Assembly (NCBI GenBank): GCA_028823145.1 | Contig: JAPKCA010000002.1 | Span: forward strand, 1 to 55,145 | DNA: 55,145 nucleotides | Direction of reading: 5' to 3' | From: Flavobacteriales bacterium | GTDB taxonomy: Bacteria > Bacteroidota > Bacteroidia > Flavobacteriales_D > Sanyastnellaceae | Shown: piece after piece, positions 6,260 to 34,986 of the stretch | How the letters are laid out: each line of letters begins with the position of its first letter | Position numbering within the stretch: position 1 is the first letter of the stretch | The notes under the pieces: model-generated | What the model saw: only the letters and a program-made list of their open reading frames with translations | What the model was told of the DNA's origin: nothing | Database searches by the model: none | Made by a program: the position numbers and the translations under genes

Positions 6260-6673
6260 GTGAATTTAAAACAACGCTTGCTTCGATATGGGATAGGGAT
6301 CTTCATTGGTGTCCTATTAAGCTTGGCTTTTTTCAGTGGTCGTGGCTGCAATGATTGGTTGCCAGAAAAACGCATCAAGGCCCGCATGCAATTGGATGGC
6401 ATTCGCCCAGACTCAACAGTCGCATGCATCATACGCTGCCATCAAAACACCACCCACGATGCCTCGTCGTTGGAGTCTTGGCTCGTGGAAGCAGAAATCG
6501 ATTGGTCAGAAAGTGGACCGAGGGAAACCCCTCAGCGCTTTGTCTTTTTGATGCCCGCCGCTGCTCCATTTGTTAAATTGGAGTGTCATTTTAAGGAAGA
6601 CATTGGCTGGATTACGTCACCTGAATTCCGCGATGGAATCAAAATGTGCTCTTGCGTTACGGACGCACGTTGA
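6260..6673 (+). CDS. Membrane-anchored conserved protein of unknown function
   Basis: A 137-residue protein beginning MNLKQRLLRYGIGIFIG with one membrane helix (about 9-27), then a short basic loop (CNDWLPEKRIKARM) and a soluble domain facing the periplasm. The N-terminal pattern (KQRLLRYGIG, GRGCNDWLPEKRI) recalls a small conserved Bacteroidota family that I remember from other genomes but cannot name. The start is chosen as GTG because the hydrophobic segment follows directly and a perfect -7 box sits 4 nt before it. It converges with the sugar dehydrogenase, with only 2 bp between stop codons. Confidence 0.7.
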   Translation: MNLKQRLLRYGIGIFIGVLLSLAFFSGRGCNDWLPEKRIKARMQLDGIRPDSTVACIIRCHQNTTHDASSLESWLVEAEIDWSESGPRETPQRFVFLMPAAAPFVKLECHFKEDIGWITSPEFRDGIKMCSCVTDAR

Positions 6674-6675
6674 TT

Positions 6676-8238
6676 TTAGCGGATGATGGCAATGCGACCG
6701 CGCGTTGGCTTTTCATCACCGACTTTCCAGGCTTCTACGATGTACGTCCCGGGAATCATCCCCGTCGTATTCCAGGTATAGGGAGTTGAAGCAATTGAGA
6801 GTGAGGCATCGTGGACAATCCTTCCGCTCATGTCGATGATGCGGATGCGTTCCAAAGAAAATTCTCCACCCATATCAAGCACGACGTTATGGCCTATCCC
6901 CGCTGGATTTGGCGACAATAACAACGATTCAAAGGAAGGGTTTTCGCCACCAGACGCGGGGTCATAGCTCAAGCGGTAGACGTGCAACTGGGTGCACAAG
7001 TACAGCTCACCCGCATTGTTTTCACTGAATGCAAAACGGGTCTCTTCCCATGGCACAAAACCTCCAGGAACCTGGATTTCTAAGGGCGCGTCGCTCCATG
7101 TGCCATCTGTCTGTTCTGTCAGCGTCCAGAATTTGACATCATAGAAACCACAGGCATCGGTGAAAACATACAAGCCATACAAGCTTTCAATGGGCCCGCG
7201 GTAGCGGTAACCACCAATGACAGAGCACCATCCGTTGTCGTGGGGATAAGCAAAGATGGGAAGCTCAAGTGTTTCGTCAGGGTTGCAATCGACGATGGGC
7301 TCATAGCACATGTTGCCCTCCATCAAGCGCCAGCCAAAATTCAGTCCACCAGGAGAATCCGCCGATTCCATGTTAATCTCTTCCCAATCTACTTCTCCGA
7401 CATCCCCAATGAATTTGTCGCCTGTAAGGCGATCGAAACTCCAGCGCCAAGGATTGCGAAATCCGTAGGCCCAGATTTCATCCAATGCCAAGGGGTCACC
7501 AACGAATGGATTGCTCTCTGGAATGGTATATGGAGCCAATCCGTGCACATCGATGCGCAATAGTTTGCCTAGGAGCGTTTCCAAATTCTGACCATTTCCA
7601 ATGGCCCCGTGTTCGTCTCCTCCGCTTCCACCTCCCGTTTCGCCAGTCCCTGTGCCTCCGCCATCGCCTGTGCTGATGTAAAGGTGTCCATCCTGCGGTC
7701 CGAAATGCAATTGTCCTCCGTTGTGTCCACGCGCCGGTTGGACCAATTCGAGCAACTCATACCAGCTGGTCGGATCAGCAACGGTATGGTCTCCATTGGT
7801 TCCAAAGCACATCAATCGTTCATCAATGAATGTGCCTGTTCCATCGGGGCGGTATCCATTGTAGATGATATAGAAAAGACCGTTCTCTTCAAAGTTCGGA
7901 TCGAGGATGAGGTCGTTGAGGCCCTGTTCGCTCATGATGCCGAAATCCACCAAGTCCAGCCCGGCTTCACTCAAATCCAAAAAGGGTTCTTCTCGGATCT
8001 CTTCCGTTTCCTCATTGTACCACATGACCAAGCCACTGTGGCAAACGATGAGGAGGTTTTTTTCATCCACCGCATGAGAAGCAGGTCGCATGGCCACGGG
8101 CCATTCGGCTTCTAATAACCGCTCAGCAACAATGGCATCAGGGGCCGTTTGTCCCCAATTGGATCCAGGGAACAACGCACACATCGTAGCGGTTAACCAG
8201 AAAAAGCGGATTAAAATCGAAGATGGAATGAATCGCAT
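6676..8238 (-). CDS. PQQ-dependent sugar (glucose/sorbosone-type) dehydrogenase with T9SS tail
   Basis: A 520-residue protein from the ATG at 8238; the frame is open further upstream, but the signal peptide (ending about SNWGQ, residue 30) fixes this start. Residues 40-420 form a six-bladed beta-propeller of the soluble glucose/sorbosone dehydrogenase family: GHNGGQLHFGP (171-181, with the proposed catalytic His172), LYISTGDGG, LLGKLLRIDV, AYGFRNPWRWSFD and DVGEVDWEEIN. Such enzymes oxidise sugars or other alcohols with PQQ and pass electrons to a cytochrome or quinone. The last 85 residues (from LLLSPNPAG, ending GRIAIIR) form a type A T9SS sorting domain, so the product is predicted at the cell surface or outside. 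It is divergent from a multiheme cytochrome c, a plausible electron acceptor (inference). Confidence 0.88.
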   Translation of the reverse strand: MRFIPSSILIRFFWLTATMCALFPGSNWGQTAPDAIVAERLLEAEWPVAMRPASHAVDEKNLLIVCHSGLVMWYNEETEEIREEPFLDLSEAGLDLVDFGIMSEQGLNDLILDPNFEENGLFYIIYNGYRPDGTGTFIDERLMCFGTNGDHTVADPTSWYELLELVQPARGHNGGQLHFGPQDGHLYISTGDGGGTGTGETGGGSGGDEHGAIGNGQNLETLLGKLLRIDVHGLAPYTIPESNPFVGDPLALDEIWAYGFRNPWRWSFDRLTGDKFIGDVGEVDWEEINMESADSPGGLNFGWRLMEGNMCYEPIVDCNPDETLELPIFAYPHDNGWCSVIGGYRYRGPIESLYGLYVFTDACGFYDVKFWTLTEQTDGTWSDAPLEIQVPGGFVPWEETRFAFSENNAGELYLCTQLHVYRLSYDPASGGENPSFESLLLSPNPAGIGHNVVLDMGGEFSLERIRIIDMSGRIVHDASLSIASTPYTWNTTGMIPGTYIVEAWKVGDEKPTRGRIAIIR

Positions 8239-8255
8239 GGGAATCTCTTGCAGAC

Positions 8256-8263
8256 TAACTTTG
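8256..8263 (+). promoter_or_regulatory. -7 box (TAACTTTG) for the multiheme cytochrome gene
   Basis: Perfect TANNTTTG match, 47 nt before the ATG at 8311. It is half of a CTTTGA-GGT-TCAAAG inverted repeat whose other half belongs to the opposing box at 8269-8276. No clear -33 element. Confidence 0.55.
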
Positions 8264-8268
8264 AGGTT

Positions 8269-8276
8269 CAAAGATA
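8269..8276 (-). promoter_or_regulatory. -7 box (TATCTTTG) for the sugar dehydrogenase gene
   Basis: Perfect TANNTTTG match on the minus strand, 30 nt before the ATG at 8238. It lies 5 bp from the opposing box at 8256-8263, so RNA polymerase footprints of the two promoters must overlap. A TTTG lies 24 nt upstream, slightly too far for a standard -33 element. Confidence 0.55.
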
Positions 8277-8310
8277 CCGCTCGAACCCACCTGCTGTGAC
8301 CAAAAACTGG

Positions 8311-10296
8311 ATGCGTCATCGAACCACATTTGCTCTGCTGCTCTCTATGGGAGCTGTAGGATTGGGATTGTTGGTTTCGGGAGCGAACGATCCGGAAGTT
8401 GCATTTCATGGAAATGATTTTGATGAAATGCGTTGGCGGATGGGAGAATTGTGCACGGAGGAGGGGGCGTTTTTTTCGGGATCGGGCAATTGCGTGAATT
8501 GCCATGCACCAGATCCTGAGGGCCATGCTATGGTTGACGAAAATGGGCAGAGTGTTAGTCCTGTGGTCGATTGGCAGGCGACGATGATGGCCAACAGCGC
8601 CAAGGACCCTTTTTGGCGCGCTAAAGTCGCACACGAGGGTTTGGTGAATCCGGATCATCGAGAGTCCATTGAAAACCTTTGCACGGCTTGCCATGCACCA
8701 CAAGGATTTCATGAAGCCCATTTGACGGGAAAAGTCGGACCGAATGGATACACCATGTCCGACTTACTGGAAGATGAGTTGGGGCTGGATGGCGTGGGGT
8801 GCACAACATGCCATGGCATTGATGACATCGGATTGGCTGGCCGGTCCAACGGCGATTTACCCATCAACCCGGAAAAGGTGTCCTGGGGTGGGTTTGAAGA
8901 CCCTTGGGATGGCCTGATGAGTGGGCAAACAGGCTTCATCCCGGTCTATGGAGAGCATATGCGAAACAGCGAAGTATGTGCGAGCTGCCATTCGTTGTAC
9001 ACGCACACCCAAGATTTGGAAGGCGAGGAAACGGGCCAGGTTTTTTTTGAGCAAACAACGTATTTGGAGTGGGTAAACTCGGCATACAATGCAGAGAATG
9101 TCCAATGCCAGTCCTGCCATATGCCTTTGGTGGAAGGAGGTGCCATCGCTGCGACACAGCCGAATTGGCTTTTCAACCAGCGATTTGGGAAACACCATCT
9201 GGTGGGCGGAAATGCCTTCATGTTGCAGTTGATGCGAGACCAAGCTGTCGAATTGGAATTGAGTGCTACGGAAGCACAATTTGACACCACCATTGCACGA
9301 ACGAAACGCTTGCTACAATATGAAACGGCTCAATTGGAAATTCGCCAAATCAATGGAGCGTTCACATCGGGAGGTGGGGCGCAACCTCCTGGGCAGAATG
9401 AATGGGCCTTTGAAGTGGAAGTGAAGAATTTGGCCGGACATAAGTTCCCAAGTGGCTATCCCTCGCGTGTGGCGTTTTTAGAATTTGTGTTGCAAAGTGT
9501 GGATGGAGACACCTTGTATCATAGCGGAGGATGGTCTCATGCTACGGGAATCATGGGCAGAGATGAAGGATGGGAGCCGCACTGGGAAGTGATTGATTCA
9601 GAGGGTCAGGTTCAGATATACGAAATGGTGGTGGGGGATGTGATGGGCGAGCCAACCCAAGTTTTGGAGAGGGCGTCCGTGCTTTTGAAAGACAATCGCT
9701 TGCCACCTCGTGGGTTTTACAAGGCGCATGCAGCGTATGACACAGTTCGATTCGGGCCGATGGCGGCTTTGGATGTCAATTTTAACCACGACGCTTTGAC
9801 GGAAGATGAGGGTTCAGGAAGTGATCGCTTGGAGTACCGTGTTTTTTTACCTGCCGGGATGAGTTCTGTGCAAGCTCGTGTGCGGTTGCATTATTTGTCC
9901 GTCCCTGCACTTTGGGTCGAAAATATGTTTGAGTATGCGAATGAATCGGTCGAAATCGAATCATTTCAGTTCATGTTTGAATCAGCTGATCGGACTCCGG
10001 TTGTGGTGGCTGAGCAATCGACATGGGCATGGCTGGGTTTTGACGATTCCGCCGAAGATTGGAAACTCGCTCCCAACCCGGTTTCTGACGGAGGCTTGAC
10101 GCGGTTGATTCCTCCAAGCACGATGCAACCTCTCGAGGTGTGGTTGCTGGATGCTCAAGGTCGCACAGTTCAGAACATTCCGGTGCTCCTTGCAATGCAA
10201 GGGTTTGGTTTGGAGGATGTCGCAGTGGGACCATTTTTCATCCGCATCCAAACAGAGGAAGGATGGAGGATGGTGCGCGGTGTCAAAGCCCCATAA
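8311..10296 (+). CDS. Pentaheme c-type cytochrome with T9SS sorting tail
   Basis: A 661-residue protein from the ATG at 8311, which directly precedes the signal peptide (MRHRTTFALLLSMG). Five CxxCH heme motifs are visible: CVNCH (61-65), CTACH (124-128), CTTCH (164-168), CASCH (223-227) and CQSCH (266-270), followed by histidine-rich stretches (FGKHHLVGG) that may supply distal ligands. A middle domain has NLAGHKFPSGYPSRVAFLEF, a segment typical of cytochrome c554-like multiheme families. The C-terminus (from about KLAPNPVSDGG) looks like a T9SS sorting domain ending VRGVKAP. The product would be a heme protein carried across the outer membrane. It is divergent from the PQQ-type dehydrogenase with a 72-bp spacer. 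Confidence 0.85.
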   Translation: MRHRTTFALLLSMGAVGLGLLVSGANDPEVAFHGNDFDEMRWRMGELCTEEGAFFSGSGNCVNCHAPDPEGHAMVDENGQSVSPVVDWQATMMANSAKDPFWRAKVAHEGLVNPDHRESIENLCTACHAPQGFHEAHLTGKVGPNGYTMSDLLEDELGLDGVGCTTCHGIDDIGLAGRSNGDLPINPEKVSWGGFEDPWDGLMSGQTGFIPVYGEHMRNSEVCASCHSLYTHTQDLEGEETGQVFFEQTTYLEWVNSAYNAENVQCQSCHMPLVEGGAIAATQPNWLFNQRFGKHHLVGGNAFMLQLMRDQAVELELSATEAQFDTTIARTKRLLQYETAQLEIRQINGAFTSGGGAQPPGQNEWAFEVEVKNLAGHKFPSGYPSRVAFLEFVLQSVDGDTLYHSGGWSHATGIMGRDEGWEPHWEVIDSEGQVQIYEMVVGDVMGEPTQVLERASVLLKDNRLPPRGFYKAHAAYDTVRFGPMAALDVNFNHDALTEDEGSGSDRLEYRVFLPAGMSSVQARVRLHYLSVPALWVENMFEYANESVEIESFQFMFESADRTPVVVAEQSTWAWLGFDDSAEDWKLAPNPVSDGGLTRLIPPSTMQPLEVWLLDAQGRTVQNIPVLLAMQGFGLEDVAVGPFFIRIQTEEGWRMVRGVKAP

Positions 10297-18125: not shown

Positions 18126-19577
18126 TTACTTTTTAATCATGCGAATACTCTCAATCCCCTGCGGCGACTGGGCGCTTAATAAATAGACTCCGGGGGCCAA
18201 ATCACTGACATCGATCGTAGCATTGCTCCGAATGCCTTTGAGAGAAATATGTTTCACCAAGCCTCCCGTTGTGTGGTAAATTAAGATTTCGGTCGTCCCG
18301 TCTGCCCAACCTTGCACATTTACTGAACCGTGATTGGGGTTGGGTTGAATGCTCAATGTCGGCACGGCAACGGTGCCTTCAGCAATGGATAGGTTGATTT
18401 CGTTGACAAGGAAGCCCTTGTTGAGGTTGGACCAAAAACCACTGTTGTTGGCGGTGAAGATGGTATTGATGTTTTCCAAGGCCTCATTGAACGTACTGAT
18501 GTCGCATGCAATAGCCCCTCCATTCCCAGTCTGGTCGTAGAGATCAAATTTGTAACATCCCGTGGTCGGGAGGTTTACCCACCACGTATAATCGCTATTT
18601 GAATCCGTCATTTCACCGAACCCAATACCAGCGACTTCAGCTCCACTCCCGTCGGAAATAGCCCAACGATTGTCGGCGGGCGTACCATCAGATGAAAATT
18701 GAACACGAACCAAACTGGTAGCGGTTTGCGAGCTCAAATTCATCGTAGTTGAGACGCTGTTGTTTCCTTCGTATCCGTCTTCAGAGATAATATCGACAAA
18801 GAAAAAAGAGGTCGTTGCAAAAGAAGCATCACCTAGTTCTACATCAATGATTTCATAGGTGTCGAGATTCCCGGTCCATTCATAGGTCAACAAGTCAGTA
18901 CCAAACAACGTACTGGCTTGAAAGGTGCATGAAGTCAACGGCTCAAGGCCATTGTTGATGATGCGAACACTCAAGGGAGTGGGCACACCTGGGCAACTGT
19001 TGGTGGAGCCGGTGTATGACAATATTCCAGCATCCAACGGAAGACTTGCTGGCGCACAACTCATCGATTGTATATAATTCGAATGAGATTCGAAACTAGC
19101 CTGACCTGTTTGGTCCAAAATACGGTTGGGACAAATAGTGAAAATGGTAGGGTAATACGTGCACTCATACGTATTGAAAATACTGCCTCCGTTATCGATG
19201 ATGCCATAATCCACTCCATCGGTCCAGTCACCCCAAGTGTTGGATCCTGTCCCATGCAAATCATCATCGGTTGTCGAGTCGTCGGACTCAATCATGAATA
19301 CCCGAACGGTGTTGGTCCCGTCAGGCCCATGGGTTGCATGGAGGTCTTCTAGTACACCGGCAGTATGATAATTCCAGCACGGCCCACACCATGTGGCAGA
19401 CATATCCATGATGACCGCATAGCCAGAATCGAGGTAGCTATAAAGGTTGTGCTCAATACCGTTGATGTCAGTAGCGGTCCAATCGGGAGCAATGCTTCCA
19501 TCAGGCAATTGAGCTGTGGAAATTGTTGCATAGGATAAGAAGGCGCAGCAGCAGAAAAAAGAGACAAGCGATTTCAT
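18126..19577 (-). CDS. Secreted thioredoxin-fold protein with T9SS tail (paralogue 2)
   Basis: 483 residues. After a signal peptide (ending TAQ, about 23) comes a TlpA/redoxin domain (25-180) opening LPDGSIAPDWTATDINGIEH with the active-site motif ATWCGPCWNYH (WCGPC, 63-67). A middle Ig/CARDB-like region (about 185-290) and a further beta-domain (about 290-400) follow, and a type A T9SS sorting domain closes the protein (from about LSIQPNPNHGS, ending RMIKK). The same architecture is found in the upstream gene 19692-21167, so these are tandem paralogues. An active disulfide motif on a T9SS cargo implies redox chemistry at or outside the cell surface. Confidence 0.88.
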   Translation of the reverse strand: MKSLVSFFCCCAFLSYATISTAQLPDGSIAPDWTATDINGIEHNLYSYLDSGYAVIMDMSATWCGPCWNYHTAGVLEDLHATHGPDGTNTVRVFMIESDDSTTDDDLHGTGSNTWGDWTDGVDYGIIDNGGSIFNTYECTYYPTIFTICPNRILDQTGQASFESHSNYIQSMSCAPASLPLDAGILSYTGSTNSCPGVPTPLSVRIINNGLEPLTSCTFQASTLFGTDLLTYEWTGNLDTYEIIDVELGDASFATTSFFFVDIISEDGYEGNNSVSTTMNLSSQTATSLVRVQFSSDGTPADNRWAISDGSGAEVAGIGFGEMTDSNSDYTWWVNLPTTGCYKFDLYDQTGNGGAIACDISTFNEALENINTIFTANNSGFWSNLNKGFLVNEINLSIAEGTVAVPTLSIQPNPNHGSVNVQGWADGTTEILIYHTTGGLVKHISLKGIRSNATIDVSDLAPGVYLLSAQSPQGIESIRMIKK

Positions 19578-19691: not shown

Positions 19692-21167
19692 TTAGTTGAG
19701 CGTCACGCGCAACGTTGTGGTTTCGTTCCCAGCTGTGAGAGCTACCAAGTAGACACCTGCCGAGATTCCAGCGAAGTTCAACACGTGGTTGTGCTCCCCT
19801 GCTTGCAATGTGCCCAGGTCCAAATTCACGACCTGCTCACCTACCAAGTTGTAGGCAACGATTCCTGCTTTCGCAGCAACGGTCGTGCTAAACTGAAGAT
19901 TGGTCTGGCCAGTGAATGGGTTGGGAAATACGTTGGTCACCTCGTTCAGCGTTTGCTCTGTGATTCCTGTATTCATCGAGGTAACGGCCATTCCGGCTTG
20001 CTCAGAGGCAAAATCGTATGAACCGTCGTAATCATAGACCGTAGAAACATAAACGAGGTCATCATTGTATGTCTTCACGGTACAATATCCATCAATCGAT
20101 CCCCACTGAGATCCATAAAGGCCATCTCCGTAGGAGTCTCCAATCTCGAATGTATAGCAGCCTTCAGATGGAACACTTACCCACCACGCGACTACGTCGC
20201 CTTCGTCACCGGCAATGTCTCCAGCAGACATCGATTCAACAACAGAGCCAGAGGCATCGGTGATGGACCAAGAAGTTTCTTGTGGCCAGTTGTCAATCAT
20301 GATTTCCACATGGATCAACGATGTGCCATCTGTAGCCAAAATCACAGAACCGGAAGAACTGTTGTTTGCAGTGTTTTCGTCATCTGACGTGATTTCAATG
20401 GTAAAGTCCGTATTCGATTCGAAGACGGCCGTTCCCAATTCAACGTTTTCGACGGCATACGTACCGAGGTCACCTGACCAGTCGTAGCTCAATAACTCAG
20501 TAGCACCATCCATGACGGCAATGGTGCAGTAACCTAGATTGGAGAGGCCCAAGTTCATCAAATCAACGCTTATGTTCACAGGTTCACCAGGGCAAGCGGT
20601 TGTTCCTCCGGTGTATCCCAAAAGAGCGGGATCGTTCATCAAAGAAGCTGCTTGACATGAATTCGCTTGGAAAATCGCGGTATGACCCGCAGCATCTAAT
20701 TGCCCAGACTCCGTTATAAGACGGTTCGGACAAACCGTATAAATGGTCGGATAGTAAGCGCCACCAAAGTCAGTGAAAATACTCCCACCATCGTCGATTA
20801 TTGGGAAGTGTACAACCGAAGTCCAATCACCTACCGTTGCAGATCCTGTTCCTTGCAAATCCTCCAGGGTAGTGGTGTCATCAGCTTCAATGTAAAATAC
20901 ACGAATTTCGTCGGTTCCATCAGGTCCGTACATTTCATGCAATTCATCCAAAGCACCACTTATGGCATAGTTCCAACAAGGGCCACACCATGTGGCAGAG
21001 AACTCGAGGATGACCTGCTTGCCTTCGTCTAGAAGATCGTACAGGTTGTGCTCAACACCGTCGAGATCAGTAGCTGTAAAGTCCGGAGCGACGCTGCCAT
21101 CGGGCAACTGCGCGAATGTGGCAAGGGAGAAAAACAGCCCTGCAATCAAAGCGTAAATGTGCTTCAT
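19692..21167 (-). CDS. Secreted thioredoxin-fold protein with T9SS tail (paralogue 1)
   Basis: 491 residues from the ATG at 21167 (MKHIYALIAG); a TTG three codons upstream is less likely. Signal peptide ends TFAQ. The redoxin domain opens LPDGSVAPDFTATDLDGVEH and carries ATWCGPCWNY (WCGPC, 60-64), followed by YYPTIYTVCPNRL as in paralogue 2. Middle beta-domains and a type A T9SS sorting domain (VFPNPFTGQTNLQF, ending TTLRVTLN) complete it. It has its own promoter (21212-21244) and terminator (19630-19662), so it is probably monocistronic. A 14-bp palindrome lies just upstream of the promoter. Confidence 0.9.
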   Translation of the reverse strand: MKHIYALIAGLFFSLATFAQLPDGSVAPDFTATDLDGVEHNLYDLLDEGKQVILEFSATWCGPCWNYAISGALDELHEMYGPDGTDEIRVFYIEADDTTTLEDLQGTGSATVGDWTSVVHFPIIDDGGSIFTDFGGAYYPTIYTVCPNRLITESGQLDAAGHTAIFQANSCQAASLMNDPALLGYTGGTTACPGEPVNISVDLMNLGLSNLGYCTIAVMDGATELLSYDWSGDLGTYAVENVELGTAVFESNTDFTIEITSDDENTANNSSSGSVILATDGTSLIHVEIMIDNWPQETSWSITDASGSVVESMSAGDIAGDEGDVVAWWVSVPSEGCYTFEIGDSYGDGLYGSQWGSIDGYCTVKTYNDDLVYVSTVYDYDGSYDFASEQAGMAVTSMNTGITEQTLNEVTNVFPNPFTGQTNLQFSTTVAAKAGIVAYNLVGEQVVNLDLGTLQAGEHNHVLNFAGISAGVYLVALTAGNETTTLRVTLN

Positions 21168-21211
21168 GAGATTCAATGTTTTGGTTGGTTCAATTTTTTA
21201 TTAAGACAAAT

Positions 21212-23659: not shown

Positions 23660-23778
23660 TCATATATGGGGATTAACAATGATAAACACATTCAAACTCC
23701 CGTTTGCGAGTCGCGCAAGATAGGATATTCTATTCTGAGGGCTCTATTTGTAGCATACAACTTCCGATGGAAGATGGG

Positions 23779-23786
23779 TATCTTCG
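23779..23786 (+). promoter_or_regulatory. -7-like box (TATCTTCG) 4 nt before an ATG start
   Basis: TATCTTCG, one mismatch to TANNTTTG, ends 4 nt before the ATG at 23791. The same octamer and spacing occur before nadC. A leaderless transcript is implied. The nearest TTTG is 28 nt upstream, too far for a standard -33. Confidence 0.5.
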
Positions 23787-23790
23787 CCCT

Positions 23791-24570
23791 ATGAAAAGGA
23801 TAAAATTGATTCAATTGGCTTTGCCCTTACTGTTTGTGGTCGCACTTCAAAATGTTTGGGCGCAAGCGACTTTGCTTGATCCGATTGACGTGATCGAGGG
23901 AACGCTATCTGACCCTGAATTTGATGAAATTGGATTCCAATGGGATGTAGCCAACTTCACATCTGACACGTTGGTCCTTTGGGTGAGCCGGGATTTAGAT
24001 CAGAATGTAGAGCCATATAACTGCCCGTACGTGAAAGAGGGAGAGGGAGCCTATGATCGTTTTTGTTGGGGGCCTCTTTGTTATGATTATTGCGCGGTTA
24101 ATTCGAACTTGCAAGGCAATTTTTTGGTGACGATTTCACCTGGTGACACGAATTCCACGTTTTTTGCTGATTACTATCATTCAGGGGTCCCTGGTGTGAC
24201 CGCATTGCGTTATTCCTTTCGAGTACTTAGCAACCCCGATGCGACAGTTCAGCATACGGTACTTGTTTGTTTAGACGCTGAAAATTGTGCCGTGGGAACC
24301 AATGAGATTTCGGTCGAGATGGATTTGGGGCGAATTTCTCCTCAGCCCATCCGCGGTATCTCGGCACTCTCGTACCGATTGGGCGAAGGCCAAAGGGGTT
24401 TAGTACAGATTTACAATGCCGTTGGGCAAGTCATGAAGTCCCGCCAGGTGAATCAATCACAGGGAATCCTTTACATCAATGGAGACGAGTTTGCTGAAGG
24501 CGCATACATCTTGCGTGTTGAGTCGAGCACGGGAGAATCTAAATCCCATCATTTTATTGTCCAACATTGA
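23791..24570 (+). CDS. Secreted T9SS cargo protein of unknown function
   Basis: 259 residues from the ATG at 23791, which begins a clean signal peptide (MKRIKLIQLALPLL, ending VWAQ); upstream in-frame codons do not resemble one. The middle (about 27-175) is an Ig-like domain with several cysteines (NCPYVKEG, FCWGPLCYDYC). The end (about 180-259; ISPQPIRGISALSY, ending SHHFIVQH) fits a type A T9SS sorting domain with its G-Q-x-x-x-x-x-x-N-x-x-G-Q-V pattern. I recognise no enzyme domain. Confidence 0.78.
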   Translation: MKRIKLIQLALPLLFVVALQNVWAQATLLDPIDVIEGTLSDPEFDEIGFQWDVANFTSDTLVLWVSRDLDQNVEPYNCPYVKEGEGAYDRFCWGPLCYDYCAVNSNLQGNFLVTISPGDTNSTFFADYYHSGVPGVTALRYSFRVLSNPDATVQHTVLVCLDAENCAVGTNEISVEMDLGRISPQPIRGISALSYRLGEGQRGLVQIYNAVGQVMKSRQVNQSQGILYINGDEFAEGAYILRVESSTGESKSHHFIVQH

Positions 24571-27522: not shown

Positions 27523-30500
27523 ATGTCGGAGAGATTGACCATAGAGCGCATGTTGGGAAGGCTGCTAACGGCTGTGTTGCTAGCGATACTAGTCGTGTCG
27601 GTAGCGTTTGGCCAAAATCCGGACACGGGCTCATCATCCGACTCGATTGTCATTGATTTGCCATTTCCTTTTGGCGGTGAGAATCCGTTCAATCCAGTAG
27701 AAAATCCAGCGGGTTTTGATTTGGATTGGCCGAGCAATTTTCAATACGAAATGGTCTACGACGATGCTACCGGGCTTTACAGTATTCGCCAGACCATTGG
27801 AGATACTTTGGAATACCGTCCGACCACATTTTTCACCTTGGATGAGTTCCTCGAATACGACATGCAAGGCAACCTGTCTGAATATTGGAATGACCTCCAA
27901 GTAGAAGACGATGAAGCCGATCGCGCATTTGCTCCAAAACTGACCGTTGACAGCAAATTATTTGAATCCATTTTTGGGAGCAATACGATTGAAATTAAGC
28001 CCCAAGGTTCAGCAGAACTGACATTTGGGCTAAACATTTCTAATACAGAAAATCCGAGAATTCCGGAACGCCAGCGGCAGATTACCACCTTTGATTTTGA
28101 TCAGCGGATTCAACTCAATATTGGCGGAAAAATTGGGGACAAGATTGAGCTAGGAACCAATTACAATACCGAAGCTCTGTTTGATTTTGAGAATCAAATG
28201 AACATCGGTTTTCAGGGAGAAGAGGATGATATTCTAAAAAACTTTGAAGCGGGGCACATCTCCATGCCTCTGCCGGGAACGTTGATTACAGGTAGCCAGA
28301 GTTTGTTTGGTGTGAAGCTCGAGACCCAATGGGGACGTTTATACAACACCACCGTTTTTTCGCAACAAAAAGGGGAACGGAAGGAGATCGAAGTGGAGGG
28401 AGGAGCGCAAACGCAAGAATTTGACATCCGAGCGGATGATTACGAGGCCAACCGTCACTATTTCATTTCACGGTATTTCAGGAATCAGTATGATCAGGCC
28501 ATGAGGAGTTTGCCTGTGCCGAACTCTGGAGTGAATATCACCCGAATCGAAGTATGGGTAGTCAATACCCAAGCCAACACGCAAGACATCCGAAACGTCA
28601 TTGGATTTACTGATTTAGGCGAGCACCCAAACTACATCTCCTCGAATTTGCCAGTCGCGGACTTGGTGGATGGCCCGGACTTAGAAATCACTGAAGTCCT
28701 TAACCCGAGCAACCGAAACAACGAGTTGTACGATCTCATGGTAAACTCACCGGAGGTCTTGTCGTTTACGGGAGCCAATGGCGCTATCGCTGCTTTGAAT
28801 TTGGGCTTGACCCAAGGGGTGCACTATGAACGGGTAGGAAATGCTCGAAAGTTGGCGACGACGGAATACACGTACAACTCCCGTCTCGGATTCATTTCGC
28901 TACGCCAAGCATTGAACAATGCAGAAGTTTTGGCAGTGGCATATGAGTATACCCTGAACGGAGAGGCTTACCAAGTGGGTACCTTATCCCAAGACGGGTT
29001 CAGTGCTCCTAGTGCGTTGATGTTAAAGATGCTGAAATCGAGCATCACGCAGTTGAAATTGAGCAACGGTGACCCTTCTCCTCTGTGGCAAATCATGATG
29101 AAGAACGTCTACTCCATGCAGGCGTTTGGACTGAGTCAAGAAAATTTCCGACTGAATCTTTGGTACAACGATCCGGCCACTGGAGTTGATCTCAATTACA
29201 TCCCGCGTGCACCACTCGATGGAACCTTGCTGCTCCAATTATTGGGGATGGACCGGTTGGACATAAATGGGATGACTCAGCCAGATGGCGTTTTCGACTT
29301 TGTTGACAATGCTGCGACTTTGGGTGGAACCATTCACAGCCAGAATGGACGAATTTTCTTCCCTTCCATTGAACCGTTTGGTTCCAACTTAAAAAATGAA
29401 ATTGAGGCCAGGGTGGATGACCCCAACTTGGCTCAAAATCTGATTTCGAGCATTGTATTTCAGCCACTTTATGACTCGACAAAAACGGCGGCCCAGCAAA
29501 TTCCTTCCTTGAATCGCTTTAGAATTAAAGGAGAATTCCAAAGCCAAACGAGCAGTGAAATCAGCTTGAATGCAATGAATGTTCCGGAAGGGTCAGTAAC
29601 CGTGACCGCAGGAGGAGTGCGATTGATCGAAAACCAAGACTACACGGTGGACTACCTCTCAGGTCGTGTCCGGATTATCAACGATGGTTTATTGGAATCG
29701 GGACGGAACATCAAGGTTTCTTTGGAAAGCAATTCTCTCTTCAGCATTCAAACCAAGACCATGATGGGGACCAGGTTTGATTATGTGTTGAGCGATAAGT
29801 TCAACATCGGGGCGACCTTTCTGAACCTTCGTGAGCGACCGCTGACGCAAAAGGTCAATGTTGGCAATGAACCGATTAACAACTCCATCGTTGGAGCTGA
29901 TTTTGCATGGCAGACCGAGAGCCAGCTTTTGACAGATTTGGTGGATTTGTTGCCATTTTATGAGACCACGGCGAAATCGAGCATTGATATTTCCGCCGAA
30001 GCAGCCTACCTCATTCCGGGGCACAGTCGAGCCATCGGCGATGATGGAAATGCGTACGTCGATGATTTCGAGGGAAGCCAATCGGCCATCGACATCCGTT
30101 CGGTGACTCGTTGGTTCTTAGCCTCTACTCCCAAACTTCAGTCAGCACTATTCCCCGAGGGAAATCTAGAAGATAGCCTGACATACAATTACAATCGGGC
30201 GGCTTTGAGCTGGTATACCGTGGACCCGCAGTTTTTCCGTGGTTCAGGCTTGGAGGATGGACAAGTTTCGGCAGAAGTGAAAAGCGACCACCGAAGCCGT
30301 GAAGTTTTGGAGGGCGAGGTGTTTCCCAACCGGGAATTGCCGACCGGAACACCACCCAACATTCCGACCCTTGACCTCACCTTCCGACCGAATGAACGCG
30401 GACCGTACAATTATGAGCTACCAGAGGGAGCAGGGGGTCTTTCTTCAGGATTAAATCCAGAGGGGTCGTTGGCTGATCCGGCATCTCGATGGGGAGGCAT

Positions 30501-33500
30501 CCAACGGGCCCTCACAACGACAGATTTTGAAGCGGCGAACATCGAATACCTCCAATTTTGGATGATGGATCCGTTCAACGAGGATTCTGAAAACCTCTCA
30601 GGCGGGGATTTGTATTTCAATCTGGGCAATGTTTCGGAGGACGTTTTGAACGACAGCCAATTGAGCTATGAAAACGGCCTTCCTTCTGCCAACAACTCGG
30701 ACCTGCCTACGTTGGAGAGTGTGTGGGGGATCTACCCCGACCCAGCGACGTTCAATGTGGTTAATGCCTTTGACAATACCTCAGGCAACTATGATTTGCA
30801 AGACGTCGGATTGGATGGATTACCCGACAACCAGGAGCAAACGTTTTTTGGTGAATGGCTCAACGAGCTATCGGGATGGCTAGATAACACGGCATATCAG
30901 AAATTTCTAGCGGATCCATCGGCAGACAACTTCCGTTATTTTAGGGATCCGGAGGCCCAACAAAACGATGAGACGATCTTGGATCGCTACAAACGTTACA
31001 ATGGGAACGAAGGCAACTCGAATACCGAATCACCGAATGGTTACCCGGTCACTTCGACAACGATTCCAAACACGGAGGATATCAACCAGGACATCACCTT
31101 GTCCACGATTGAGAGTTATTTCCAATACAAGGTATCGCTCCGTCCCCAGGATATGGGGGAGGTGAACATCGGCAACAACTATATCACGGATACGTTTGAG
31201 ACGGTGCGAGAAACGGCCGATGGTCAGGAACGAACCATCCGCTGGTACCAATTCAAAATTCCGGTTCGGGAATTCGAATCGCGTGTCGGGGGCATCACAG
31301 ATTTTCGATCCGTTCGGTTTATTCGGATGTTCATGAAGGGTTGGTCAGAACCCGTAACGTTGCGTTTTGCTCGTTTAGAATTGATCCGAGGGGAATGGAG
31401 ACGTTACCTAAATTCGTTGGCAGGACCGCAAGAGATTGAGCCAGATGATCCATCATCGACTTCATTCAATATCAGCGCCGTCAACATTGAAGAAAATGGA
31501 AATCGGGAGCCCGTTCCATACGTGACACCACCGGGAATCATCCGAGAAATTGACGTGGGTACCGCCAATCAACGCCGATTGAATGAACAATCGTTGGAGC
31601 TCGCCGTTTGTGGGCTGAGTGATGGAGATGCTAGAGGAGCGTACAGAAACATAAACTTCGATATGCGTATGTACAAGCGTTTGCGGATGTATGTGCACGC
31701 GGAAGCGGGCCCTGACGGGACATCACTTGACGACAATGAGTTGACATGTTTTGTTCGATTGGGCAACGACTTTGAGTCGAATTACTACGAATTCGAAATC
31801 CCCTTAACCGTGACGCCATGGAACACAGGGGACGAGGATTTGATTTGGCCGTTGGAGAACAACATCGACATTGAATTTCGCAAGTTGCAGAACTTGAAAA
31901 TTGAGCGTCCTGCAGGTTACCCCCTATTCGATGAATACCATACCATGGACGGTTCGTCCCGCTTGGCGGTGAAGGGAAACCCGAATTTGGCCAACGTGGT
32001 TATGGTGATGGTGGGGGTGCGAAATCCGGATAAGGATGACAATGAGTTTGAGGCCGATGATGACGGGTTGGATAAATGTGGCATTGTTTGGGTGAATGAA
32101 ATGCGTTTGGCAGATTTCAATGAGCAGGGTGGCTGGGCGGCCATCGCGCAAATGAATGCGAAGCTTGCGGATTTGGGCAATATTTCGGTTGCTGCAAATA
32201 TGTCTGTACCTGGTTTTGGTGGTTTGGAACAGCGCTTACAGGCTCGACAGCGTGAAACCATCCAAGGGATTGATGCCTCAGGGACGGTGCAATTAGGCAA
32301 GCTGCTGCCCAAGCAATTGGGAATAACCCTCCCCATGTATTTGGGCTGGAGCGAGCAAGTTTCTACGCCGCAATTTGATCCACTCTCTCCGGACATTGAA
32401 ATGGCTTCTCAAGAAGGCCTTTCGCCAGAACGTCGAGAAAATGCCAAGAGCGTAAGTCGATTGAGATCGGTGAACTTCTCCAACATTAAAATTGACCCAA
32501 AAGTGGGGGGAAGTGGCGGAAGTCGTGACCGCAATCGCGGAGATGATGGTGCGGGTGGCATTGGATTGGAATCAGGAGGCGGCGGAAAGGATGGCGGAAA
32601 GGATAGTGGCGGCAAAGGCGGTTCGGCCCGCGGTGGTTCGGCCCGCGGTGGAGGCGGGTCAGGAAGCGGATTTGCTTCCAATTTTGGGCTGTTCAAAATG
32701 CTGCGTCCAGGAAACTTCTCAGGAAACTTTAGCTTCAACGAACGATTCGAGCGGGATGTCAACACTGAATTCCAAATCAACCAGGAATACCGTGGCGGAC
32801 TCACCTACAACTTCTCTCACTCTCCAAAGCAGTTCAAGCCATTTAGCAAAATCGGCTTTTTGAGGAAACATGACTTTATGAAATGGCTGACGGAGTTCAA
32901 TTTTTATTTGGGCATCAAGCAATTGACAGTCGGTTCTCAAATGAATCGGGTATACGAAACGAGTCGGGTACGGAACAACACCGAGGAATTGCTCGGGATT
33001 GAAACGAATTTGCTGATCAACACCCAGGTCATGAAGACCTGGCAGTGGAACAGGAATTATGCCGTCAAGTACGACCTGACCAAGGCTTTGAAGTTTGATT
33101 ACAATGGAACGACTCAGGCACTGGTCGGAGAACCTGCGGGGGTCATTGATCGCAGCGACGAAATGGGCTACCAAACGTACCGGGATTCGGTCATCGGCAA
33201 TTTGCGAAACGCAGGTGAGGTGACGAGCTATAACCACAATGTGACGGGGAGCTATAAGTTGCCTTTGGATAAACTTCCCCTGATTAACTTCATTTCAAGT
33301 GACATCCGCTACCAGGGAATGTTCCGGTGGGATCGGGCGCCTTTCTCCCAGGATTCAATTGGTCACACCATTCAGAATTCGCGAAACGTCAGCATCAATG
33401 CACAGGCGAACTTCACAAAGTTGTACTCCAAAGTTTCAGCCATCAATGACCTTTTGAACCCTCCGCGGAAGTCTCCCCGGAGGAACGATGTTAGAAATGA

Positions 33501-34986
33501 AGACAGGGATGGTTTTGGCAATGCAGAAGAGGAAAAGATCAAATTGAAAATCAACCCACTGGCCACCATTGTGCGTTTGATTGCGAGTGTTCAAAATGTA
33601 TCTGGAACGTTTTCGCGCAATGAAGGCATGATTTTACCGGGCTACGATCAGCGAGCGAGATACGGGGGCTTCGATGATGATTTCTTGGCTCCTGGCGCAC
33701 CGTTTTTGTTGGGCCATCAAAACACGAATATTCTGGGTGAAAGGGTGGGCGATTTTGCTGGAGATGCAGCAGAAGCAGGATGGTTAGTCGCGCAGCCATT
33801 TCAAAACCAACAATACACCGAAACGTTCCAAGAGACGTTCAACGTCCGAGCGAATCTGGAACCCATCAAGTATCTCAAAATCGAACTGACCGCGAACCGC
33901 AATTCCTCACGTAACTACACCAGTTTCTTCCGCTTCGATGAGGACTTGAATGAATTCGTGTACGAATCGCCCAACGAAACGGGTCAGTTCTCTGCCACGG
34001 TATTGAGTTGGAACACCGCGTTTGAAAAGGACGATGTGGATGATGAATTTAACTCTTCTATTTGGGATCAATTCCTGCAAGTCAATCGCTTAGAAATATC
34101 CGAGAGATTAAATGCCGCAACGCACAACGATGAGGTTCCTGAAGTCACAGGATATTATGCGGGCTGGGGAGCGTTGAGTCAAGATGTTGCGATTCCCGCG
34201 TTCGTAGCGGCGTACTTGGGAATGGACGCTGCGAGTGTGCCATTGGATGTGTTTAAAACACCTGTGGCCCCGAACTGGAGGGTGACGTACGATGGTTTGA
34301 CCAAATCTGATTTCTTCAAGCAGTATTTCAAGCGATTTAATTTGAGCCACAGTTACCGCTCAACGTTGACCACGAATTACATCACCAATTTGAACTACGA
34401 AGACGATGATTTGGGCAATCCTGTTGGCATCGATCAAAGTGAATTTGGAAACTACATTTCCGAGCGCCAATTCAATGTGGTGAGTTTGAGTGAGCAGTTG
34501 TCACCATTGATTGGCGTGGATATGACCTTCAATACCGCGTCTGAGAATGAGCCGCAATTAAAGGTGGAGCTCAAGCGCGATCGAAATGTAGCCTTTGGTT
34601 TAACCAACTATCAGATTACAGAAACCAAGAGCAATGCGTTGGTGGTTGGCCTTGGATATAAATTCAAGAATGTCCCCAACCCTTTCATCAAAACATACGG
34701 AAAGCTGCCGATTAAGATGTTGAAAGAAACGGATTTGGTCTTGCGTGCGGATTTAAACATTCGAGACAACCGGACCATCATCCGAAAAATAGAAGAGCGA
34801 CAAAACCAGGTGACAGCGGGACAAAAGTTGATTTCCATCAAGGTTTCTGCTGACTTGGAGATTTCGGATAAGATTACCATGCGGGCGTTTTACGATCATC
34901 AAATCACGGATCCATATATCTCGACATCTTTTGCAACGTCGAACATCCGTTCGGGAGTAGCTTTGCGCTTTAGTTTGAATCAATAA
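27523..34986 (+). CDS. sprA: SprA, T9SS outer-membrane translocon
   Basis: 2487 residues, near the usual 2300-2500. After a signal peptide (about 10-30, ending AFGQ) lie the repeated SprA modules with long beta-strands, ending in a membrane strand SGVALRFSLNQ. SprA (Sov in Porphyromonas) is the very large beta-barrel through which T9SS cargo crosses the outer membrane; it also supports gliding. N-terminal landmarks are TTFFTLDEFLEYDM and GTNYNTEALFDFENQM; later AYLIPGHSRAIGDDGNAYVD and IVWVNEMRLADF. A glycine-rich insertion occupies about residues 1660-1720. The gene sits one base after ruvA and 13 bp before gcvH. Confidence 0.96.
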   Translation: MSERLTIERMLGRLLTAVLLAILVVSVAFGQNPDTGSSSDSIVIDLPFPFGGENPFNPVENPAGFDLDWPSNFQYEMVYDDATGLYSIRQTIGDTLEYRPTTFFTLDEFLEYDMQGNLSEYWNDLQVEDDEADRAFAPKLTVDSKLFESIFGSNTIEIKPQGSAELTFGLNISNTENPRIPERQRQITTFDFDQRIQLNIGGKIGDKIELGTNYNTEALFDFENQMNIGFQGEEDDILKNFEAGHISMPLPGTLITGSQSLFGVKLETQWGRLYNTTVFSQQKGERKEIEVEGGAQTQEFDIRADDYEANRHYFISRYFRNQYDQAMRSLPVPNSGVNITRIEVWVVNTQANTQDIRNVIGFTDLGEHPNYISSNLPVADLVDGPDLEITEVLNPSNRNNELYDLMVNSPEVLSFTGANGAIAALNLGLTQGVHYERVGNARKLATTEYTYNSRLGFISLRQALNNAEVLAVAYEYTLNGEAYQVGTLSQDGFSAPSALMLKMLKSSITQLKLSNGDPSPLWQIMMKNVYSMQAFGLSQENFRLNLWYNDPATGVDLNYIPRAPLDGTLLLQLLGMDRLDINGMTQPDGVFDFVDNAATLGGTIHSQNGRIFFPSIEPFGSNLKNEIEARVDDPNLAQNLISSIVFQPLYDSTKTAAQQIPSLNRFRIKGEFQSQTSSEISLNAMNVPEGSVTVTAGGVRLIENQDYTVDYLSGRVRIINDGLLESGRNIKVSLESNSLFSIQTKTMMGTRFDYVLSDKFNIGATFLNLRERPLTQKVNVGNEPINNSIVGADFAWQTESQLLTDLVDLLPFYETTAKSSIDISAEAAYLIPGHSRAIGDDGNAYVDDFEGSQSAIDIRSVTRWFLASTPKLQSALFPEGNLEDSLTYNYNRAALSWYTVDPQFFRGSGLEDGQVSAEVKSDHRSREVLEGEVFPNRELPTGTPPNIPTLDLTFRPNERGPYNYELPEGAGGLSSGLNPEGSLADPASRWGGIQRALTTTDFEAANIEYLQFWMMDPFNEDSENLSGGDLYFNLGNVSEDVLNDSQLSYENGLPSANNSDLPTLESVWGIYPDPATFNVVNAFDNTSGNYDLQDVGLDGLPDNQEQTFFGEWLNELSGWLDNTAYQKFLADPSADNFRYFRDPEAQQNDETILDRYKRYNGNEGNSNTESPNGYPVTSTTIPNTEDINQDITLSTIESYFQYKVSLRPQDMGEVNIGNNYITDTFETVRETADGQERTIRWYQFKIPVREFESRVGGITDFRSVRFIRMFMKGWSEPVTLRFARLELIRGEWRRYLNSLAGPQEIEPDDPSSTSFNISAVNIEENGNREPVPYVTPPGIIREIDVGTANQRRLNEQSLELAVCGLSDGDARGAYRNINFDMRMYKRLRMYVHAEAGPDGTSLDDNELTCFVRLGNDFESNYYEFEIPLTVTPWNTGDEDLIWPLENNIDIEFRKLQNLKIERPAGYPLFDEYHTMDGSSRLAVKGNPNLANVVMVMVGVRNPDKDDNEFEADDDGLDKCGIVWVNEMRLADFNEQGGWAAIAQMNAKLADLGNISVAANMSVPGFGGLEQRLQARQRETIQGIDASGTVQLGKLLPKQLGITLPMYLGWSEQVSTPQFDPLSPDIEMASQEGLSPERRENAKSVSRLRSVNFSNIKIDPKVGGSGGSRDRNRGDDGAGGIGLESGGGGKDGGKDSGGKGGSARGGSARGGGGSGSGFASNFGLFKMLRPGNFSGNFSFNERFERDVNTEFQINQEYRGGLTYNFSHSPKQFKPFSKIGFLRKHDFMKWLTEFNFYLGIKQLTVGSQMNRVYETSRVRNNTEELLGIETNLLINTQVMKTWQWNRNYAVKYDLTKALKFDYNGTTQALVGEPAGVIDRSDEMGYQTYRDSVIGNLRNAGEVTSYNHNVTGSYKLPLDKLPLINFISSDIRYQGMFRWDRAPFSQDSIGHTIQNSRNVSINAQANFTKLYSKVSAINDLLNPPRKSPRRNDVRNEDRDGFGNAEEEKIKLKINPLATIVRLIASVQNVSGTFSRNEGMILPGYDQRARYGGFDDDFLAPGAPFLLGHQNTNILGERVGDFAGDAAEAGWLVAQPFQNQQYTETFQETFNVRANLEPIKYLKIELTANRNSSRNYTSFFRFDEDLNEFVYESPNETGQFSATVLSWNTAFEKDDVDDEFNSSIWDQFLQVNRLEISERLNAATHNDEVPEVTGYYAGWGALSQDVAIPAFVAAYLGMDAASVPLDVFKTPVAPNWRVTYDGLTKSDFFKQYFKRFNLSHSYRSTLTTNYITNLNYEDDDLGNPVGIDQSEFGNYISERQFNVVSLSEQLSPLIGVDMTFNTASENEPQLKVELKRDRNVAFGLTNYQITETKSNALVVGLGYKFKNVPNPFIKTYGKLPIKMLKETDLVLRADLNIRDNRTIIRKIEERQNQVTAGQKLISIKVSADLEISDKITMRAFYDHQITDPYISTSFATSNIRSGVALRFSLNQ
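32621..32650 (+). repeat. 15-bp perfect tandem repeat in sprA
   Basis: gttcggcccgcggtg occurs twice in direct succession (32621-32635 and 32636-32650), encoding two GSARG-type units in the glycine-rich insertion of SprA. The in-frame unit could expand or contract by slippage. Confidence 0.9.

Follow-up and report, generated by a model that had tools for sequence, protein, structure and literature searches.

A divergent gene pair for a pentaheme cytochrome and a GSDH-fold protein, a candidate cell-surface redox pair with type IX secretion tails in Flavobacteriales

Introduction

Pentaheme cytochromes (PHCs) such as ExtKL and Gsu2801 of Geobacter sulfurreducens, those of cable bacteria and c552 of Thermochromatium tepidum have a beta domain behind their five CxxCH motifs. 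A paper on cable bacteria (PMC11976967) places ExtKL, Gsu2801 and the cable-bacteria pentaheme proteins in one family, reports their structural likeness to T. tepidum c552 and repeats a suggested link between PHCs and the archaeal nanowire AvECN. Another paper (PMC6148476) presents the ExtKL of Geobacter as a pentaheme protein of the periplasm and reports that a strain without the ExtKL cluster reduced Fe(III) citrate to 66% of the wild-type level. Here we analyze a stretch of 55,145 nucleotides from a Flavobacteriales bacterium (the window: contig JAPKCA010000002.1, positions 1 to 55,145), in which the gene of a cytochrome of the same build stands head to head with the gene of a GSDH-fold protein. 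The window belongs to an assembly of 2.26 Mb that is 85% complete (G000 in our numbering of genomes).

Described relatives of the second protein are YliI/Asd (2g8s), the aldose dehydrogenase 3a9g and the soluble GdhB (1c9u), sugar dehydrogenases of PF07995 that use pyrroloquinoline quinone (PQQ) and share with the second protein the catalytic His and the Arg-Asn pair. E. coli has a TonB-dependent importer of PQQ, PqqU (6v81, 9c4o; PMC12124388). According to the same source, PQQ synthesis is encoded by 23% of bacteria with PqqU.

An original prediction, made from the letters of the window, had taken the two proteins for a soluble-type PQQ sugar dehydrogenase and a cytochrome, both with C-terminal segments resembling sorting domains of the type IX secretion system (T9SS). 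We tentatively propose, with somewhat more doubt than confidence, that they form a co-expressed cell-surface redox pair: both exported, made together, working as partners and passing electrons from one to the other.

Results

The divergent pair and its control region

The two genes are transcribed away from each other, with 72 bp between their starts:

6676 to 8238, minus strand: gene of the GSDH-fold (PF07995) protein, start ATG at 8238, 520 amino acids
8239 to 8310, no strand: intergenic region common to the GSDH and cytochrome genes, 72 bp
8256 to 8276: face-to-face, overlapping promoter-like boxes of the form TAnnTTTG, TAACTTTG on the plus strand and TATCTTTG on the minus strand
8311 to 10296, plus strand: gene of the pentaheme cytochrome, PHC type, 661 amino acids

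The divergent order, the 72-bp spacing, the five CxxCH motifs and the GSDH motifs quoted in the original prediction are all present. The GSDH frame listed for the window has 681 amino acids and begins at 8721, within the cytochrome gene; we take ATG 8238 as the true start, in agreement with the alignment of orthologues. Both proteins begin with a hydrophobic stretch of the signal-peptide type, as had been predicted. The GSDH continues with the propeller domain and a T9SS type A-like C-terminal domain (residues ~437-519). The Pfam scan and the first scan with TIGR04183 were run with a GSDH query 25 residues short at its start and a cytochrome query one codon long; the NCBIfam scan was repeated with the correct protein ends, and the Pfam values given here are those of the original ends.

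The stretch 8256-8276 of the spacer reads TAACTTTGAGGTTCAAAGATA, that is, two opposed TAnnTTTG boxes, a form that corresponds to the -7 element consensus of Bacteroidota. We searched for such double boxes, with gaps of 0 to 8, in 973,811 bases made up of the window and 57 fetched loci. There are 21 occurrences, where shuffled sequences lead us to expect 0.67, and every one of them lies in a spacer between a GSDH and a PHC gene (21 of 25 such spacers). It persists even though the gap between the boxes ranges from 0 to 5 and their spacing from the start codons differs among loci. Single boxes occur in the window at chance level (21 found, 25 expected). In the whole genome, double boxes with a gap of 5 are found in two places, the pair spacer and G000:C179:23605-23625, and in the control in none. 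The double box is missing from four of the 25 spacers of the lineage (G009, G012, G025 and G029) and from the separate pairs of G036 and G104 described below, which counts against the proposal. These sequence features strongly suggest that the GSDH and the cytochrome are co-expressed from overlapping divergent promoters, and the common control region claimed for the pair is supported by its conserved double motif. In loci L102 and L103 (G035, G032) about 7 bases separate the end of the promoter box from the likely ATG of the cytochrome; this spacing would point to leaderless transcripts, provided that translation begins at this ATG.

Conservation of the pair

The divergent pair is conserved in the genus. 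The two genes stand next to each other and point apart in 19 of its 22 genomes, and both are missing in the other three; no genome has a single one of them. Outside the genus, 15 genomes of the same family include five with the divergent pair, one with this GSDH alone (G034) and nine with neither. In G034 the position of the cytochrome gene beside the GSDH is occupied by two other genes, one for a DUF4249 protein and one for a second TonB receptor (L106:4303-7637).

The neighborhood is conserved as well, the pair lying between a proline dehydrogenase and an ABC transporter. This flanking block is a constant of the genus, and outside it the block recurs in G025, G029 and G032. An earlier reading of G029, in which the pair lay away from this block, was dropped, since tblastn places the ABC-transporter side, the visible part of the block there, beside the pair. 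As the block is kept in G029 too, our confidence in the partnership and in the proposal as a whole is slightly lowered. Given this conserved setting, linkage and joint loss are weak evidence in this lineage. Joint loss may moreover reflect one deletion, since just short 3' ends of both genes remain in G014.

These observations bear on the view that the two are independent surface proteins, neighbors by synteny, and that their shared promoter is a matter of head-to-head packing. The conserved block, the loss of one partner alone in G034 and the absence of a GSDH beside the PHCs of the wider class (0/28, see below) all speak for it. The persistence of the boxes despite changing gaps and start-codon distances, the lack of genus genomes with a single gene and the existence of three separate PHC-GSDH pairings speak against it, and we consider independence quite unlikely.

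The PHC family and its neighbors

The cytochrome has its CxxCH motifs at protein positions 61, 124, 164, 223 and 266. After the signal-like N-terminus come the heme part (residues 61-270), a beta domain (~330-573) and a T9SS type A-like tail (~588-661). All five motifs, together with His 295 and His 377, are invariant in an alignment of 19 rows from several phyla, and the motifs are also invariant in the cytochrome alignments A5 (made without the truncated cytochrome L100) and A8. Among the other alignments, A2 holds 18 of 22 loci (L071, L076, L078 and L080 being left out), A3 lacks two partial rows of A1, and A6 lacks the truncated GSDHs L085 and L095. The Pfam model of MtrC/MtrF domains II/IV is narrowly passed (30.7 against a cut-off of 30), as is Cytochrom_C (22.8 against 21.3), and other multiheme models match weakly. 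The ExtKL model NF040886 is matched at E 0.01 by 38 of 39 relatives in the order, at best with 1.3e-11; the window cytochrome, with 18.7 bits, does not reach its equivalog cut-off of 250. The AlphaFold model of the cytochrome, made without heme, has a pLDDT of 48, and the heme part is of low confidence. Its beta domain alone matched the penta-heme c552 5ze8 (Z 11.9 over 161 residues, 3.4 A).

The window cytochrome has 661 residues, against 411-508 in 12 relatives from outside Bacteroidota, and it carries a T9SS-like domain at its C-terminus; ExtKL is described as periplasmic. The most fitting description of the window cytochrome is a PHC to which a T9SS domain has been added. The window genome has a second PHC copy (G000:C192).

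In the order, 48 of the 140 genomes surveyed have a PHC of this form. The T9SS-tailed pentaheme family extends to 53 of 247 genomes of Bacteroidia, two of the 53 being in the family of the window, so a T9SS-tailed multiheme cytochrome is not the oddity that the original prediction had taken it for. In the order, GSDH and PHC genes stand side by side in 13 of the 46 genomes that hold both families, as judged by eye, where chance would give some 0.1-0.3 cases by a rough estimate, also by eye, from gene counts and genome sizes. These 13 fall into three lineages, and ten belong to that of the window. G036 and G104 have a T9SS-tailed GSDH from a different subfamily (PF07995 scores of 242 and 245 bits) that is divergent from the PHC, with 61-103 bp between the longest frames; the cytochrome of G104 is broken off at the end of its contig. 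In G046 a third kind of GSDH (177 bits) stands in tandem with its PHC. All four proteins of G036 and G046 have T9SS tails above the cut-off (25.9-33.6 bits). In the cytochrome tree the paired group requires two changes and may have had more than one origin.

The picture is different in the class at large, which weighs against a fixed partnership. We examined 28 loci from the 53 matching genomes, taking in at most 1.5 kb to either side of the PHC. A GSDH is found in none of them, while an FG-GAP protein adjoins the PHC in 12 (Pfam confirmed the assignment in the three that were checked). The GSDH is thus one among several PHC neighbors and not a fixed one, and FG-GAP/UnbV_ASPIC proteins are perhaps the more usual partners. 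The class loci concerned are L155, L157, L158, L160 and L165 to L172; such proteins also stand beside the PHC in five loci of the order (L112:9793-12528, L120, L138:9628-12369, L142 and L109). Both full-length FG-GAP/UnbV_ASPIC proteins that were scanned have a T9SS tail.

C-terminal tails and export

Both proteins had been predicted to end in T9SS sorting domains. Against TIGR04183, whose cut-off is 23 bits, the window GSDH reaches 19.9 bits (E 5.5e-4) and the window cytochrome 12.2 bits (E 0.14), so their own sequences fall short. The families fare better: counted at E 0.01, the model is matched by 35 of the 39 order cytochromes (the window's own is not one of the 35) and by all 28 from elsewhere in the class (63/67 together), as well as by 18 of 26 GSDHs. 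The window proteins retain residues of the tail, PNP and GR among them.

The fold gives further support in the case of the GSDH, whose tail end is modeled better than the rest (block pLDDT 65-82, residues 451-510). Residues 437-519 matched the NucA complex 8glk (Z 9.7) and mirolase 8qb1 (Z 9.1), and also PorZ 5m11 (8.6), RemA (8.5) and RemZ (8.3). T9SS cargo or PorZ tails thus make up five of the top eight matches and hold the first and second ranks; their lead is narrow, with unrelated Ig-like sandwiches reaching Z 8.7. For the cytochrome tail beta strands are predicted, and no T9SS tail is among the 50 matches listed, which mostly cover residues 334-605. A tail of this length is absent from the 12 non-Bacteroidota PHC relatives that were aligned, out of 16 loci found, where 15-35 of the 82 tail columns are filled.

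As the window's own tails score below the cut-off, their assignment rests on the relatives and, for the GSDH, on the fold. On this evidence both proteins are likely exported to the surface by the T9SS. The low scores would be expected if the tails were degenerate and the pair remained periplasmic, inside the outer membrane, with electrons going to an ordinary respiratory chain. The fold of the GSDH tail, the family-wide occurrence of such tails and the retained PNP and GR residues argue against this, and we regard a periplasmic pair as improbable.

The secretion system itself is represented by SprA, the component that was searched for, and the window genome has 60 T9SS tails above the cut-off. 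No porin of the MtrB type (TIGR03509) was found in 40 genomes; the control genomes gave no match either. The sprA gene lies in the window:

27523 to 34986, plus strand: sprA (Sov), T9SS translocon gene, TIGR04189 1860 + 497 bits

It shares the window with three T9SS tails above the cut-off, besides the two tails of the pair. Two of these belong to neighboring genes on the minus strand, 18126-19577 and 19692-21176, for AhpC/TSA or thioredoxin-like proteins (PF18962 37 and 41 bits); the AhpC/TSA match of the first is under its cut-off, and both appear to encode exported redoxin-like proteins. The third is that of a protein of 288 amino acids (23704-24570, plus strand), with 31 bits for TIGR04183, above the cut-off, and 24 bits for PF18962, below it. 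Next to the GSDH gene, positions 6260-6673 (plus strand) encode a conserved protein of 137 amino acids that has no Pfam match at E 1 and is present in most pair loci.

The GSDH-fold protein and its cofactor

With 92.3 bits against PF07995 (cut-off 25), the GSDH clearly belongs to the family. It is far from the PQQ-dependent subfamily TIGR03606, with 31.8 bits against a curated cut-off of 434.55. We mapped the PQQ-contact positions of the soluble glucose dehydrogenase (sGDH), namely His144, Arg228, Asn229, Gln231, Lys377, Arg406 and Arg408 in sGDH numbering, onto the GSDHs of the pairs through YliI. In the solved enzymes His144, Arg228 and Asn229 hold PQQ and serve catalysis, and all 24 GSDHs of the pairs have their equivalents. 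Those of Lys377 and Arg406 are not kept, that of Gln231 is a Trp, and that of Arg408 depends on the alignment used. PqqE was found above its cut-off in none of 36 genomes, the window's included, nor in the control genomes. Among bacteria with PqqU a lack of PQQ synthesis is common. The GSDH thus differs from YliI/Asd, 3a9g and GdhB in its T9SS tail, in the missing Lys377 and Arg406 equivalents and in the lack of a PqqE above the cut-off. Of the predicted soluble-type PQQ sugar dehydrogenase, the family has held; the use of PQQ is doubtful.

The closest solved relative of the GSDH is not an enzyme but the hedgehog-interacting protein, HHIP (2wfx), with E 1.8e-17 against 1.5e-12 for 3a9g. Modeling gives little help, as the AlphaFold models of both proteins are poor outside their beta domains, that of the GSDH having a mean pLDDT of 35 (five sequences) and being poor outside the beta tail. 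The GSDH could accordingly be a non-enzymatic propeller, like HHIP, that serves the surface cytochrome as a binding or docking partner; what it binds could be the cytochrome, a glycan or some ligand. The Lys and Arg contacts that are not kept, the lack of PqqE and the propeller-type FG-GAP/UnbV_ASPIC proteins beside PHCs in 12 of 28 class loci and five order loci agree with such a role. The invariant catalytic residues do not, as HHIP has His-Asp where the GSDH keeps Arg-Asn, nor does the pairing of PHCs, in two other lineages, with GSDHs that score higher against PF07995. We find a purely binding role rather unlikely.

The window genome encodes a second GSDH (L133:6637-8136, G000:C58), with an N-terminal CxxCH stretch of the cytochrome c type and, by eye, no T9SS-like end.

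TonB receptors near the pair

FecA imports Fe(III) chelates, and FecA-like TonB receptors are encoded in 13 of the 22 genus genomes. FecA is their best solved match (83.5 bits). In 12 of the 19 genomes with the pair the receptor gene lies directly downstream of the cytochrome, an arrangement that in one of them, G004, is split over two contigs. The receptor is missing in the other seven, the genome of the window among them; in the window the cytochrome is directly followed by the proline dehydrogenase. Conversely, G014 and G023 have the receptor in the block without the pair. The idea of the receptor as a fixed third part of the system is weakened by both facts.

It might be thought that the system serves the surface reduction of Fe(III) or another metal for uptake by the TonB receptor and not the gain of energy. 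The position of the receptor gene in 12 of 19 genomes, and the lowered Fe(III) citrate reduction of Geobacter without the cluster of the PHC relative ExtKL, are in line with this view. Against it stand the genomes that have one part without the other, the window's among them; in addition, the import of Fe(III) chelates by FecA needs no reduction. Reductive metal acquisition therefore seems to us fairly unlikely.

The genus receptor was also considered as a PQQ importer, and this was rejected. At the places of the PqqU signature (Y/F/W99, R304 and R365) it has a gap, Phe and Leu/Phe in 12 of 12 rows of alignment A4, in which the loops around the signature align poorly, and unlike PqqU it is FecA-like. 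A PqqU-like receptor does follow the GSDH in G036 and G104. Among the solved proteins of the PDB, PqqU matches the G036 receptor far better (E 1.7e-36) than does the best one that is not PqqU (3.7e-7). In the receptors of G036 and G104 two of the three signature residues, R304 and R365, are not at the aligned places. PqqU/YncD-like receptors were seen directly behind a GSDH at L138:3703-6024, L139:3314-5632 and L141:2743-4956 and, by coordinates, also beside GSDHs in G024, G025, G031 and G034.

Discussion

We propose that Sec would carry both proteins into the periplasm, where the cytochrome would receive its five hemes, and that the T9SS would then move them over the outer membrane by means of their C-terminal domains. 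Homology, and for the GSDH also the fold, makes this first step quite probable. To judge from the spacer, we expect with similar confidence that the two would be made together from the overlapping divergent promoters.

A working partnership of GSDH and cytochrome is probable, though less assured than export or co-expression, because of the shared control, the joint presence and the two further pairings. It is then possible, at somewhat less than even chances, that the GSDH oxidizes a small extracellular substrate, probably a sugar, and passes the electrons to the cytochrome; its cofactor would be PQQ taken from outside or a PQQ-like compound. If export is by the T9SS, electrons released outside must end outside or re-enter the cell through a conduit. 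An extracellular acceptor such as Fe(III) would be the simplest end point of such a release, and we mention Fe(III) because of the FecA-like receptor gene downstream of the cytochrome in 12 of 19 genomes. That the cytochrome hands its electrons to an extracellular acceptor, possibly Fe(III), is nevertheless an unlikely step at present. Electron transfer, substrate and acceptor are the parts of our proposal that we infer.

The T9SS-tailed pentaheme family is the more novel part of these results, more so than the pair. Among the papers listed in our literature searches, which covered neither subscription journals nor preprints, we found none on the T9SS together with multiheme cytochromes and none on a PQQ-dependent dehydrogenase with the T9SS. 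It is tempting to propose, with confidence just short of even, a Bacteroidia route in which a PHC with an added T9SS domain is exported as a folded holo-protein instead of relying on a lipoprotein and porin conduit; in this lineage, the PHC would form a redox chain lying wholly outside the cell, together with a dehydrogenase that the T9SS likewise exports and that is made from a mirror-image promoter.

If this is true, Bacteroidota, a phylum that to our knowledge is seldom associated with extracellular electron transfer, would have in the T9SS a means of constructing it, with both a dehydrogenase and its acceptor at work outside the cell. The family-wide T9SS tail could also provide a simple marker for such cytochromes in other genomes.

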